Positions 5,609 to 10,541 of a stretch of DNA of 64,000 nucleotides are shown here, piece after piece. Each line of letters starts with the position of its first letter. Positions within the stretch are counted from its first letter, which is position 1. Made by a program: the position numbers and the translations under genes. Origin of the DNA: Kiloniellales bacterium (GTDB taxonomy: Bacteria > Pseudomonadota > Alphaproteobacteria > Kiloniellales > JAKSBE01); the NCBI GenBank assembly GCA_030066685.1, contig JASJBF010000001.1, positions 186,001 to 250,000 on the forward strand, read 5' to 3'. The notes under the pieces were generated by a model that was given only the letters and a program-made list of their open reading frames with translations, did not search any database and was not told where the DNA came from.

Positions 5609-6172
5609 ATGAGGGCCAAGGCGTTCGTTTTGGCATCGCTGTTATTGGCGCTACCCGGCTGCGAGCTTCTGGGAATGGAGTCCGAATCGGCCGACTCGCC
5701 GGCCGGGGCTGCCCTGCCCGAAGGCACGGGCGCCGGATTCGAGACCTCGGATTCCGAGCTCCAGGCAAACCTGAACGAGGACCTCCTGGTCGTGCTTCCG
5801 CCGCCGCCTGGCCCGCCGCCGCGCAAGCCTTTGGTCGGAATATCCCTGCTGCCCAGCAAGTCCGACCACGAGGGGCTTGAGGCTTTGCGGACCTACGAGG
5901 CGGTAAAGTTGACAGAAGATAACCTAATTGGCATAGAGCCGGTGGACGCCATGGGCCTTCTAGGCGTGCCGGAGCAGATTCGCGAGGATCCGCCGGCCCA
6001 GGTCTGGGCCTATCGGCGGGAGGGCTGTCGGCTGGAGATCTACTTCTACCTTGATCTTGAAAGTGACAATTTGCGTTCTTTGACCTATGAACTCGAAGCG
6101 GGTGAGCCATCTGAGGCGGCAAGGCAAGCCTGTCTAACTCGTTTGCTGACTCCGGAGGGTGATCATGGCTAG
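5609..6172 (+). CDS. outer-membrane lipoprotein, BamE/OmlA-like fold suspected
   Basis: The chosen ATG gives a 187-residue protein with a type II signal peptide: MRAKAF, a hydrophobic run and the lipobox LPGC, so Cys18 would be lipidated. An acidic linker and a polyproline stretch (PPPPPGPPPRKP) follow. The C-terminal half carries a segment of the form GVPEQIRED..QVWAYRREGCRLEIYFY, which resembles the small alphaproteobacterial SmpA/OmlA-like lipoproteins. It overlaps the response regulator start by 8 bp and forms one operon with it. It may act at the envelope as an accessory sensor for this two-component system; this is inferred from position only. Confidence 0.75.
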   Translation: MRAKAFVLASLLLALPGCELLGMESESADSPAGAALPEGTGAGFETSDSELQANLNEDLLVVLPPPPGPPPRKPLVGISLLPSKSDHEGLEALRTYEAVKLTEDNLIGIEPVDAMGLLGVPEQIREDPPAQVWAYRREGCRLEIYFYLDLESDNLRSLTYELEAGEPSEAARQACLTRLLTPEGDHG

Positions 6173-6932
6173 TGTTGCCTTGGCGACGGACCCGGCCTTG
6201 GTGGTGGTTGTCGACGACGATGCGCTGTTTCGAGAATCGCTGGGGCGAAACCTGTCGGACGCCGGCTTCTCGGTGATCGATTTCGGCGATGGCGTTTCCG
6301 CCGTCGAGTACTTCGATAACGGCGGTGCCGCGGATCTGGTCCTGCTCGACTGGAAGATGCCGGAGCTCAACGGCATCGAAGTCTTGCGCATGCTGCGCGA
6401 ACGGCACAATGACGTCCCCGTCATCTTCCTGACCGTCTTGAGCGACCAGATCTACGAGGAATCGGCGCTGTTGCATGGCGCGGTCGATTTCGTCGAGAAG
6501 TCGCGCAGCTTCTCGATCCTGCTGAAGCGTATCGAATTGATCACTTTGGGCACCCGCCGGGGCGCGGCGAGCGCTGGCGACATGGCCGACCAGCACGGCA
6601 GCATGCGCCTCAGCAAGCTCGAACTGCTGCCCGATACCAGCCGTGCCTATTGGGAAGGACGCCAAGTCGATCTGACCCTGAACGAATTCAAGATCGTCGA
6701 GTACATGGCGACCAATGCAGGCCGCGACGTCCGCTATCGCGAACTCTATGACCTGATTCACGGCAAGGGCTTCGTCGCCGGCGCCGGGAAAGAGGGTTAT
6801 CGGGCCAACGTGCGCACCTTCATCAAGCGCATTCGCCAGAAGTTCCGTGATCTTGATCCGGCCTTTGAGGAGATCGAGAACTACCCGGGCTATGGCTACC
6901 GTTGGCGGGATGATAAGTCTAAGACGACGTGA
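6165..6932 (+). CDS. OmpR-family response regulator (ChvI-like)
   Basis: A 255-residue regulator with an N-terminal receiver domain: acidic pocket D17-D19, phosphoacceptor Asp62 in LLDWKMPELNG, and a conserved Lys in FVEKSRS. It ends in a winged-helix DNA-binding domain with an OmpR-type finish (IENYPGYGYRW). The ATG at 6165 has GGAGGG at 6154-6159, which decides it over an upstream ATG. The wing region and length resemble ChvI, the partner of ChvG/ExoS in acid and envelope-stress signalling. The kinase gene begins inside its last codons, so the pair is coupled. Confidence 0.88.
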   Translation: MASVALATDPALVVVVDDDALFRESLGRNLSDAGFSVIDFGDGVSAVEYFDNGGAADLVLLDWKMPELNGIEVLRMLRERHNDVPVIFLTVLSDQIYEESALLHGAVDFVEKSRSFSILLKRIELITLGTRRGAASAGDMADQHGSMRLSKLELLPDTSRAYWEGRQVDLTLNEFKIVEYMATNAGRDVRYRELYDLIHGKGFVAGAGKEGYRANVRTFIKRIRQKFRDLDPAFEEIENYPGYGYRWRDDKSKTT

Positions 6933-8439
6933 CACCGCGGAGAGGGCCAGATTCCTTTGGGGATCCTTTGCGACCAAGTTGGCCCTCCTCGTCACGATCT
7001 TCTTTTCCGTACCGATCATCCTCTATGCACAGTTCCGTGAAGGCGACGTACAGCGGAACAAAATTCTACTGGACAGCCTCGAGACGCAGGGACGCTTGAT
7101 CGCCCGCAGCCTCGAGCCGATGCTGCAATCCTTCGATGGCAACTCCGCCCGGGTGCTCAGCGAGGTTCTGGTGCGCCTGGGGGCCGGAGAGATCCTCAAG
7201 ATCAAAGTGCTTCTGCGGCCGGCGGGCCAGCCGGAGCCGACCGGGTTCTTCTACGTCGCTTCCCAGCCCGTCGTGCCCAACGAATACCTGGACCAGGAGC
7301 GGGTCGAGCTGGTCGAGACCGGAATCCTGCGGCTGCTCCAGAACTCCTGCGAAGGCAACCAGACCCGCGCCGTACGCTACATCAACCCGGCCGGCCAGGA
7401 GGAGATCCTGACCTCGATCATCCCGGTCAACACCGAAGCCGGGTGCTGGGCGGTGATCACCTCCCACGCCAGCGACGAGTGGCTGGGCGCGAGCCTCGAC
7501 TTGCCCTATTGGCAGACCCCGCAGGTCCGGGTTGCGGCGGCGATCTACATCCTGATGGCGCTGATCGTCTTGTCGCTCTTTCTCGGCATCTGGCGCAGCC
7601 TCGTGCGCTTCGGCCGCCTGGCCCGGGACATCCGGACCGGCGGCCCGGGCGACCGTTCCTTCGCCGCGCTCAACAGCCTGCCCGAGCTCTCCGCGGTCGC
7701 CCAGGAGTTCGACTCCATGGTCGAATCCCTCGACGCCTCGGCCCTGTCGATCCGGCGCGCGGCAGAGGAGAACGCCCACGCCTTCAAGACTCCGATCGCC
7801 ATTATCTCCCAGTCGCTGGAGCCGCTGCGCCGTTCCATCAACGGCGACGACAAGCGCACCGTGCGCGCGATCGAGCTGATCGAGCGGGCCATCGGGCGGC
7901 TCGACGCCCTTGTCTCGGCGGCCCGCCAGATGGACGAGATGTCGGCCGAGCTGATCGACCCGCCACGCGAGCGGACCGAGCTCTCGACCCTGGTCGAGGC
8001 CATGCTGGACGCCTACGCCGAGTCCTTCGACGCCAAGCACCTGCGCGTGGTCCGCCTGATTGAGCCGGGCATCGATGTCCTGGTCGGCTCGGACCTGCTC
8101 GAGACGGTGATGGAGAACCTGCTGGACAACGCCATCGATTTCTCCCCGCTGGGCGGCGAGCTGACCATCGGCCTGGCCAGGCAGCGCAAGATGGTGACCC
8201 TGATCGTCGCCGACCGCGGTCCCGGCGTCGATCCCAACGACCTGGACCGGATCTTCGAGCGCTACTATTCCTTCCGCACCGCCAAGGAGACCGGCGAGCA
8301 CATCGGCGAAGGCGAGAACTTCGGCATTGGTCTCTGGCTGGTACGTCGGAACATCGAGGCCGTCGGCGGCACGGTGCGGGCGGAAAACCGCCCCGAGGGC
8401 GGGCTCGCCATCTCCGTCGCCCTGCCGCTCCCCGGCTGA
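6910..8439 (+). CDS. membrane sensor histidine kinase, partner of the preceding regulator
   Basis: About 509 residues. Membrane helix 1 lies near residues 21-41, an extracytoplasmic domain of about 165 residues follows, membrane helix 2 lies near 206-227, and then HAMP-like linker, HisKA and HATPase. The phosphoacceptor is His290 in an unusual H box, ENAHAFKTPIA, instead of the common SHELRTP. The ATP lid shows ENLLDNAIDFSP, DRGPGV and GENFGIGLWLV. The periplasmic domain contains two Cys (SCEGN and GCWAV) that could form a disulfide. Start ATG 6910 overlaps the regulator stop by 23 bp. Architecture and gene order fit a ChvG-like kinase, but the sensor sequence is not clearly ChvG. Confidence 0.85.
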   Translation: MISLRRRDTAERARFLWGSFATKLALLVTIFFSVPIILYAQFREGDVQRNKILLDSLETQGRLIARSLEPMLQSFDGNSARVLSEVLVRLGAGEILKIKVLLRPAGQPEPTGFFYVASQPVVPNEYLDQERVELVETGILRLLQNSCEGNQTRAVRYINPAGQEEILTSIIPVNTEAGCWAVITSHASDEWLGASLDLPYWQTPQVRVAAAIYILMALIVLSLFLGIWRSLVRFGRLARDIRTGGPGDRSFAALNSLPELSAVAQEFDSMVESLDASALSIRRAAEENAHAFKTPIAIISQSLEPLRRSINGDDKRTVRAIELIERAIGRLDALVSAARQMDEMSAELIDPPRERTELSTLVEAMLDAYAESFDAKHLRVVRLIEPGIDVLVGSDLLETVMENLLDNAIDFSPLGGELTIGLARQRKMVTLIVADRGPGVDPNDLDRIFERYYSFRTAKETGEHIGEGENFGIGLWLVRRNIEAVGGTVRAENRPEGGLAISVALPLPG

Positions 8440-8452
8440 CCCCGCTTGTCGA

Positions 8453-9658
8453 TCAGGCGCTTTCGAGGGCCTTGATCTGGGCCAGGGCCGGCACCGGCTC
8501 GACCCGGCGGCAGTGGCCGTCGAGGATCGCCCCCTTGCGGACCACGAGCTTTTCGTAAAGCACCTCGCCGGACACGCTGGCGCCCTTGGTGAGGATCACC
8601 TTGGCCGCCCGGATCCGGCCGCGCACGGCGCCCTCGACGGTGACAGCGTCGGCGATGATCAGGCCGCGGATCGAGGCATCCCGGCAGACCCGCAGAGTGC
8701 GGGCCCGTATCTCGCCTTCGTAGTGCGCGTGGAAGTGGATGTCGCCGGTGCTCTCCAGGTTGCCGACGACTTCGGCCCTGGGGCCGATGACCGAGGGCCG
8801 CTGGGCCTTGAGGGTCCGGGCGAAGGCACGGGCGCTGGGCGTGGTGGTGACGTCGCGCCACAGGCTCTTGCCGCTCTCGATCGGCAGGGGCAGGCGGCGG
8901 AAGCTCCGGGCGCCGGCGGCGAGGGCGCCGTGCAGCACCCGGACCGGCAAGGCCTTGCGTTCCGGCTCCGCCGCCACCGGCAGGTTCGGCAGGGAGGCGC
9001 GGAAGGAATGCGTCGCCTGGCGGGGCACCCGGTCGAGGCGGGACAGCAGGTAGTCCCAGAGCCGGGCGACCTCCGAGGAGGCCGGCGAGGTCCGGTTCAG
9101 CTCGACGATGGTCTGGCCCATGCGGATGCTGGTGCCCAGGTCGTCGTTCTGGGGCATGATCACCGGCGAGACGGTGCCGTGCTGGGCCAGGTACATCGCG
9201 GCGTCGCCAAGCGCGTCGCCGATGGCCTCGCTGTCCAGCTCGGCCGCGTTGATCACGAAGATGAAGGGCTTGCGCTGCTGCTCGGCGAGCGCGGCGCAGC
9301 CGCTGGCCTGGGCCAGGGCCTCGGTCGCGGCATGGGTGGGCACGACCACCAGATCGGAGGCGCCGGCCATGCGGAACAGGGTGTCCTCGTCCTCGAAGGC
9401 GCAGTCGATGACCGAGAGCCTGACCCCGGCCCGGTTTTGCTTCTCCAGGACCGCTCCCAGGTCGGCCAGGCTGGTCTCCTCGTAGAGGGGATGGCGGCCC
9501 TGTCGCAGGCCGGCCCAGTTCGACAGGATTGGGTCGTGCCGAAGGCCGGTCAGGGTCACCGGACCGTGCCCGGTGAGCTGGGCCTGGACCGCGACGTGGC
9601 AAGCCAGGGTCGAGGTGCCCATGGCTCTTTGCTTGGAGAGAAACGCCAGGACCTGCAT
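8453..9658 (-). CDS. degenerate ParA-like domain fused to a bactofilin domain
   Basis: About 401 residues. Residues 1-207 align by eye with ParA/MinD ATPases: VLAFLSKQRAMGTSTLA stands where NQKGGxGKTTLA is expected, and SVIDCA and SDLVVVPTHAATEALAQA follow at the right spacing. The P-loop is destroyed: the nucleotide-binding GKT is GTS and the signature GG is RA, so ATP hydrolysis is unlikely. After an 80-residue linker, residues 289-385 form a bactofilin beta-helix repeat (VVGNLESTGDIHF, then GEIRARTLRV and GAVRGRIRAAKVIL). Bactofilins polymerise without nucleotide and scaffold polar or envelope machinery. ATG 9658 has GGAG 5 nt upstream; a TTG 15 codons earlier is less likely. It is divergent from a plain bactofilin gene. 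Confidence 0.85.
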   Translation of the reverse strand: MQVLAFLSKQRAMGTSTLACHVAVQAQLTGHGPVTLTGLRHDPILSNWAGLRQGRHPLYEETSLADLGAVLEKQNRAGVRLSVIDCAFEDEDTLFRMAGASDLVVVPTHAATEALAQASGCAALAEQQRKPFIFVINAAELDSEAIGDALGDAAMYLAQHGTVSPVIMPQNDDLGTSIRMGQTIVELNRTSPASSEVARLWDYLLSRLDRVPRQATHSFRASLPNLPVAAEPERKALPVRVLHGALAAGARSFRRLPLPIESGKSLWRDVTTTPSARAFARTLKAQRPSVIGPRAEVVGNLESTGDIHFHAHYEGEIRARTLRVCRDASIRGLIIADAVTVEGAVRGRIRAAKVILTKGASVSGEVLYEKLVVRKGAILDGHCRRVEPVPALAQIKALESA

Positions 9659-10043
9659 CACGTCTCCGGTGTCCGCTGGGGCGTCGACCCGGCCCGAGGC
9701 CAACTTGCCCCGAGCGACCGGCGCTGCGCGGACTCGGGGCCCCTGCGGTGATTTCCGACCGCCATCGTGCTGGTGTAAGGCCGAAGGGTAAATCCGCGCT
9801 TAATTGTCCTTTGTGGCGCGGCTGCATTTTCGCGGCGGCGTCACAGCCCGGTCCTGGAATCCAGCCCCGAGGAGGCGCGCAGCGCCGGGACCTGCCTTGG
9901 CCTGGAAAGTGCACCTCCGCGGCTCAGCGAACCGGAGGCTAAGCCGCCGGGAAGCCAGCGAAACTGAGGCATTGCGGTGAGCTCGCATGACGGCTTAAAG
10001 TAACGGGTCGAGAAAGCGCAGGACCGACGACGGGCCTCTCGAA
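9659..10043. other. divergent intergenic region between two bactofilin genes
   Basis: This 385-bp region separates the leftward ParA-bactofilin fusion from the rightward bactofilin. No ORF with coding character, repeat or strong hairpin stands out. An AT-richer pocket at about 9775-9830 is the best place for the leftward promoter. The rightward gene lacks a clear ribosome binding site. Confidence 0.4.
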
Positions 10044-10541
10044 ATGGCATCGAAGCAACGCGAGACTCCTGGCGAATTCCCGCGGCCTGACCGTCGCGAA
10101 GGGCGGGGCCCGCAGCCTGCCGACGACCTTCCGGACCTCCCGGCGCTGCCGCTGGAGCAGGCCGAGCGGGCCGCCCGGGCGCATAACGACCGTCTGCTGA
10201 TGGTCGGGCCGGGCATCTCGGTCAAGGGCCGGATCCAGAGCTGCGACCGCCTGGTCGTCGAAGGCCAGGTCGAGGCCACCCTGCAAGCGGACGAGATCGA
10301 CGTCATAACGGGCGGCCACTTCAACGGCGACGTCGAGGTCAACACGGCGATCATCTCCGGAACCCTGACCGGAAACGTCGTGGTTCGGGGCCGATTGGAG
10401 ATCACCGAGACCGGGCGCGTGACCGGCCGGGTCCGCTACAATCAGCTCATGATCCACGAGGGCGGCCGGATGTCCGGCGACGTCCAGTTCCAGGCCATCG
10501 ACGACGTTCTGGTCGAAGCCTCGGAACGGGTCCGCGCCTGA
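10044..10541 (+). CDS. bactofilin
   Basis: A 165-residue protein with a polar, Pro-rich N-terminal tail of about 55 residues and a central polymer-forming domain. The hydrophobic/Gly periodicity of a right-handed beta-helix is clear: GPGISVKGRIQSCDRLVVEG, QADEIDVITGGHFNGDVEV, GTLTGNVVVRGRLEI, GRVTGRVRYNQLMI. The C-terminal tail is short and acidic. Length and layout are normal for the family. It probably forms filaments that serve as a scaffold, and the divergent fusion protein is an obvious partner for copolymerisation. Confidence 0.9.
   Translation: MASKQRETPGEFPRPDRREGRGPQPADDLPDLPALPLEQAERAARAHNDRLLMVGPGISVKGRIQSCDRLVVEGQVEATLQADEIDVITGGHFNGDVEVNTAIISGTLTGNVVVRGRLEITETGRVTGRVRYNQLMIHEGGRMSGDVQFQAIDDVLVEASERVRA

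Follow-up and report, generated by a model that had tools for sequence, protein, structure and literature searches.

A bactofilin with a degenerate ParA-type head, confined to one alphaproteobacterial genus, as a possible nucleotide-independent docking module

Within the window (the whole 64,000-nucleotide stretch of DNA from a Kiloniellales bacterium that was analysed), one gene encodes a ParA-type domain, a basic linker and a complete bactofilin domain in a single chain, which is conserved in the three genomes of its genus. The ParA-type domain has kept its predicted fold and its structural core under selection, and has lost most of the residues with which ParA proteins handle ATP. In the reading we prefer, to which we give about an even chance, the protein is a bactofilin-based, nucleotide-independent docking module: a ParA-shaped domain carried on a bactofilin polymer that recruits a client without an ATP switch. 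On this view, what was once a switch for moving DNA or cargo now probably serves as a static docking site built into a cytoskeletal filament.

Results

Architecture and predicted folds of the fusion protein

The features of the fusion gene, in window coordinates, are as follows.

8453..9658, minus strand: fusion gene, 401 aa, pseudo-ParA domain, linker and bactofilin domain; open frame from ATG, also a one-frame fusion in the congeneric loci L004 and L005
9029..9658, minus strand: ParA/ParF-like pseudo-ATPase domain, residues 1-210; NF041546 match, AlphaFold2 fold, Foldseek matches to 5u1g and 4e03
9605..9637, minus strand: degenerate P-loop, residues 8-18, SKQRAMGTSTL (SKHRGVGTSTL in the orthologs), from alignment with intact ParAs
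9515..9553, minus strand: remodelled Walker A-prime/switch I, residues 36-48, LTGLRHDPILSNW replacing LIDTDPQGSLADW; invariant in all three species
9383..9415, minus strand: degenerate Walker B/switch II, residues 82-92, SVIDCAFEDED replacing VIDTPPAIT; Asp kept, TPP lost
8807..9028, minus strand: basic linker, residues 211-284, net charge +9, pI 12, modelled as disordered, with an amphipathic stretch at 239-256
8510..8794, minus strand: bactofilin domain, residues 289-383, of the BacA/LmdC-type clade; PF04519, similarity to 6rib, tree

The gene starts at an ATG at position 9658, with GGAG upstream, and stops at 8453. Residues 4-202 matched NF041546 ("ParA family partition ATPase") from end to end (E=2.7e-11). 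At 43.4 bits the score lay far below the curated cut-off of 180 bits, under which the intact relatives (160-166 bits) likewise fell. Pfam returned no ParA domain in the N-terminal part; its sole match in the protein was the bactofilin domain, above the cut-off of 27.9 bits (PF04519; E=3.9e-19, 69.2 bits). This was the outcome of the profile search that the sequence-only reading had suggested. Re-checking also bore out the positions and orientations of the two genes given there, the extent of the domains and the distance of 385 bp to the divergent neighbor, with the bactofilin domain at residues 289-383.

AlphaFold2, supplied with an alignment of the ParA domain to intact ParAs and two fusion orthologs, modelled residues 1-213 with pLDDT mostly 80-95, as alternating strands and helices in ParA topology. 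A Foldseek search of the PDB with this domain placed TP228 ParA/ParF at the top (5u1g, 4e03; E ~1e-11, TM 0.82-0.84 over the target, 17% identity), followed by MinD, Soj, FlhG and MipZ, so that the ParA-like fold first proposed from the letters is confirmed by both programs. The bactofilin part was modelled in a separate AlphaFold2 run from residues 209-401, where the whole-protein alignment had only three rows. The linker came out without structure and the β-helix with pLDDT >90. Compared with the Thermus bactofilin 6rib, the model gave a TM of 0.93 over the target and an rmsd of 1.1, as a right-handed β-helix, and this model together with the PF04519 match upholds the earlier claim that the bactofilin domain is complete.

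The ATPase machinery is lost and the core is kept

Residue loss was scored against a reference set of 29 intact ParAs, in which 85 ParA-domain columns were conserved at ≥90%. The fusion differed at 37 of the 50 columns in functional motifs and at 7 of the 35 columns elsewhere (Fisher p=9e-7, a value that is indicative, as the motif limits were drawn after the alignment was seen). Where intact proteins have the P-loop SQKGGSGKTTL, the window copy reads SKQRAMGTSTL and both orthologs read SKHRGVGTSTL. In 3/3 fusion species the signature lysine is Gln or His and the Walker lysine is Thr, and the deviant Walker A motif KGGxGKTT is absent. DTDPQGS of Walker A-prime, TPP after Walker B, PTRPSPHDLR, RARIT and the HQRTDF...MIDGR segment have also gone. 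What remains is the strand and helix core, Gly14, Ser16, Thr17, the Walker B residue Asp85 and the C-terminal helix LWDYLxxRL. The net charge of the domain, -8 to -10, compared with a mean of -4 in intact ParAs (range -11 to +3), is only mildly informative on DNA binding.

Among intact proteins, the closest to the fusion domain are ~230-aa ParAs encoded on chromosomes, at 31-38% identity, and three intact paralogs (C51, C31 and C53) are encoded in the same genome at 32-38% identity. In the ParA tree the fusion proteins group together with good support, and the branch leading to them is very long. The domain had been called a pseudo-ATPase, and the replacement of both lysines in all three species, with most residues of the switch motifs and of the motifs on the DNA and partner sides gone, sustains that description. 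Judged by its residues, the domain is unlikely to have ATPase activity or to form an ATP-dependent dimer and bind DNA in that form.

The fusion is under selection in three species

Two congeneric genomes, both MAGs (L002/L004 and L001/L005), encode the same one-frame fusion at 91-92% identity with both lysines lost. NG86 dN/dS values were 0.13-0.20 for the ParA domain, 0.16-0.31 for the linker and 0.07-0.10 for the bactofilin domain. Across residues 14-62, a stretch of 49 residues around the remodelled switch I, the three species are identical in amino acids and show 19 synonymous codon differences; given 25 replacement sites, an invariant stretch that long has p ~0.025 under a uniform model, in a comparison of only three species. 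Because this stretch is invariant in the presence of synonymous change, what used to be the nucleotide/dimer face seems to be under selection for a new role. Within the genus, few parts of the fusion vary as much as the tip of the P-loop (SKQRAMG versus SKHRGVG), a drift that is expected if ATP is no longer bound.

At residues 147-150 (window 9209-9220) the window copy has 4 residues more than both congeners, GDAL beside GDAA, as from a 12-bp tandem duplication.

Distribution

The full-length fusion was present in 3/3 genomes of the genus. No further case turned up among the 63 genomes searched at order level, 385 at class level and 399 at phylum level (~800 distinct); at the latter two levels scoring was limited to the top 4 candidates of each genome, and a very divergent fusion could be missed. 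A peptide-pattern scan of 84,980 species genomes, sensitive to close relatives only, returned just the same two relatives. The fusion was found on 0 of 72,556 plasmids, where the matches were ordinary ParA genes, several beside ribbon-helix-helix genes. The order, class, phylum, species-genome and plasmid searches together reject a widespread fusion, and the spread across Rhodospirillales for which a census had been envisaged was not borne out: the protein was found in one genus only.

The sequence-only reading knew of no described protein of this kind, and our search of the open full-text literature, with subscription papers outside its scope, likewise found no ParA-bactofilin fusion protein. 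A review of ParA proteins mentions bactofilin solely in the context of Myxococcus BacNOP-PadC-ParA (PMC9178275). What is new here is a bactofilin with a degenerate ParA-type head; the ParA-bactofilin linkage itself was already known in Myxococcus.

Origin of the bactofilin part and its neighbors

On the other side of the start of the fusion gene lie three further features.

10044..10541, plus strand: plain bactofilin P0002, 165 aa; PF04519, E=1.6e-21; of another clade than the bactofilin of the fusion
9768..9805, no strand: conserved intergenic block 1, ~110-150 bp upstream of the fusion gene, from the three-species alignment
9960..10003, no strand: conserved intergenic block 2, 40-85 bp upstream of the plain bactofilin, from the three-species alignment

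The bactofilin domain of the fusion groups with BacA/LmdC bactofilins, at a fork of 88/90 with the L098 BacA and OWN_C28b/C29 (short alignment, long branch), and it shares the CRR end motif of the BacA clade. Each of its nearest bactofilins (L098, L106-L109) follows an LmdC-like M23 gene; no LmdC gene adjoins the fusion. The MFSK-type N-terminal membrane peptide is absent from the fusion, and the paralogs C28 and C29 in the same genome keep MFSK/MFSR. That genome has 11 bactofilin matches, an unusually large set, with four clustered at C24 (G000:C24:56815-62090, L101) and two adjacent at C28 (L099).

Two origins were considered and rejected. A tandem duplication giving rise to the fusion bactofilin and its plain neighbor is contradicted by their different clades. 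Neighboring BacA-type bactofilins were checked as the source of a ParA-bactofilin gene pair, and none had a ParA gene beside it.

In two other families, an ortholog of the plain bactofilin adjoins the same genes for a fatty-acid desaturase and an S-formylglutathione hydrolase, without the fusion. Since the neighbor keeps this synteny in relatives that lack the fusion, gene order indicates that the plain bactofilin is the older resident of the locus and the fusion gene a later arrival on its other side. The arrangement of plain bactofilin, desaturase and hydrolase genes recurs in at least 2 other families of the order (L089, L092-L097).

The 385 bp between the two starts (9659-10043) consist of the two separate conserved blocks and a non-conserved middle of variable length, and no sigma-70 match was found in this gap. 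A shared bidirectional promoter was rejected on these grounds, and co-regulation is not supported. Because the blocks are separate and each lies near one gene, divergence alone argues little for a joint function. The view that the two divergent genes act as a pair is weakened: their bactofilins are of different clades, the neighbor's synteny is found without the fusion, and the gap falls into two blocks. At its other end the fusion gene lies tail-to-tail with a two-component pair, the next gene being a convergent ChvG-like kinase. This pair (window 6159-8439), a response regulator and a ChvG-like sensor kinase in overlapping frames, is syntenic in all three genomes.

Partners of the intact relatives

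In TP228, the crevice of the ParA ATP-sandwich dimer receives a peptide of the ParB protein ParG, and DNA binding requires the ATP form (PMC5393062). More generally, the partner proteins of ParA/MinD ATPases exert their effect via an N-terminus that is charged and disordered (PMC10241942). Nearly all intact ParF-like relatives of the fusion are followed by a gene whose product starts with an LLxRKGxAxP-like peptide; among the genes flanking the fusion, none is an RKGxAxP-type partner. With no such partner gene and the matching face lost, binding of DNA or of a ParB-type partner by the canonical route is unlikely. The first reading suggested that the protein could connect a filament with DNA or with a ParB-like partner, and this part of it is not supported: the ATP site is lost, along with PTRPSPHDLR, RARIT, HQRTDF and MIDGR on that face.

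Downstream of orphan ParF-like ParAs of the order (L006-L036, L057, L058), the directly following proteins share an N-terminal peptide of the form ~LtxxLLxRKGxAxP. The bodies behind it are unrelated, being ribbon-helix-helix, transmembrane plus SPOR, DUF2336 or of no recognised family (for example L007:2221-2748, L017:2229-3497, L024:1390-1755 and L035:2211-2996). Across these sequences it looks like one ParA-docking peptide, used on both DNA-binding and envelope cargo adaptors.

The bactofilin domain of the fusion contains VVRKGA (LVVRKGAIL near residue 373; window 8672-8695), where bactofilins usually have VEAGA. The same six letters recur in VVRKGASA, the N-terminal motif of the protein that partners the C51 ParA in the same genome (L047:7565-7957), which may be chance.

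Discussion

In the docking-module reading, the short N-terminal membrane-targeting peptide of a BacA-type bactofilin would have been replaced by a whole ParF-like domain (ParF being a small plasmid-type ParA) that is ATPase-dead. The bactofilin part would polymerise, either by itself or jointly with the cell's own BacA paralogs of the MFSK type, and on the flexible basic linker each subunit would display a ParA-shaped domain that is monomeric and free of nucleotide. The remodelled former nucleotide/dimer face (residues 14-62) would then act as a permanent protein-docking site, holding a client on the filament without an ATP-controlled on/off cycle; neither a ParB/ParG-type peptide nor nucleoid DNA is favored as that client, and the gene surroundings offered neither a partner gene nor an operon mate that would hint at it. 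Caulobacter BacA binds the membrane through its N-terminal peptide MFSKQAKS (PMC12448750), and the basic linker, with its charge of +9 and amphipathic stretch at 239-256, or co-polymerisation with MFSK paralogs, could stand in for the lost peptide.

A possible though unlikely alternative is a scaffold in the manner of PadC, in which the dead ParA domain pairs with intact C51, C31 or C53, or holds their partners, and so ties or titrates a partition or cargo system. The genome does supply the three intact paralogs, LWDYLxxRL at the C-terminal helix is well preserved, and in Myxococcus BacNOP recruits ParA via PadC, which prefers monomeric ParA (PMC5703909). However, the P-loop and signature lysine that ATP-sandwich pairing requires are both lost, as are the conserved residues on the side of the dimer crevice where a ParG-type peptide docks, and the fusion has no RKGxAxP-type partner gene beside it.

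We consider it improbable that the domain is a folded N-terminal cap or spacer that blocks membrane binding or lateral bundling and has no specific client. Such a role would suit the variability of the regions flanking bactofilins (PMC12364344) and the missing membrane peptide, but the ParA domain is under strong selection that has its focus in the stretch with the remodelled switch I and not in the core alone. A cryptic nucleotide-binding or other ligand-binding activity is hardly to be expected: although Gly14, Ser16, Thr17 and Asp85 are kept, the domain has lost both lysines, the Asp residues of Walker A-prime and TPP, and its loop tip drifts from one species to another. Equally far-fetched is a decaying or artefactual fusion. 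The variable P-loop tip and the 4-residue GDAL insertion of the window copy would fit decay, but three independent assemblies carry one uninterrupted frame with dN/dS ~0.15 over all regions. These data rule out a frame artefact or pseudogene, and with them the concern, raised by the first reading itself, that the domains might really be separate genes.

Returning to the docking module, we advance its fullest form only tentatively, at somewhat less than an even chance: that a ParA motor domain was exapted into a nucleotide-independent hub within a filament, that its remodelled face holds a specific client permanently, and that the protein is the first single-chain ParA-bactofilin scaffold. ParA-family ATPases and bactofilins are two general bacterial placement systems, and the links between them described so far run via separate adaptors. 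A natural fusion with its switch erased and its fold kept would mean that a ParA fold can work purely as a domain for interaction, and one protein with a defined remodelled face would offer a compact handle for finding the client recruited by a bactofilin filament. The range of the protein is limited to one genus and three genomes.

Comparison with known systems

The fusion resembles TP228 ParA/ParF (5u1g, 4e03) and the NF041546 family in fold, in length (~205 residues), in the order of its elements and in its structural core. Unlike them, it lacks the Walker lysine, the signature lysine, Walker A-prime and the effector-side motifs, and it has a bactofilin attached; unlike the intact ParF-like relatives in the same genome, which have a ParG-like partner downstream, it has no cognate partner gene. 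With the LmdC-associated BacA of alphaproteobacteria it shares a complete bactofilin domain of the BacA clade and the CRR end motif, whereas the MFSK peptide is swapped for a 210-residue ParA-like domain and no LmdC gene is adjacent.

TadZ/CpaE and BcsQ, degenerate members included, have a ParA/MinD-type domain that serves localisation rather than DNA partition, and none of these localisers is known to carry a bactofilin. Against NCBIfam, the fusion matched no CpaE/TadZ model and matched BcsQ weakly (E=0.012).

In Myxococcus xanthus, active ParA is held on BacNOP filaments via PadC, a separate ParB-like adaptor bound to the BacP tail (PMC5703909). In contrast, the ParA-like part of the fusion is probably inactive and belongs to the same chain, in which Pfam finds no PadC-like or ParB-CTPase adaptor domain. 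On paper, the two arrangements lead to a similar result, a bactofilin polymer that bears a member of the ParA family.
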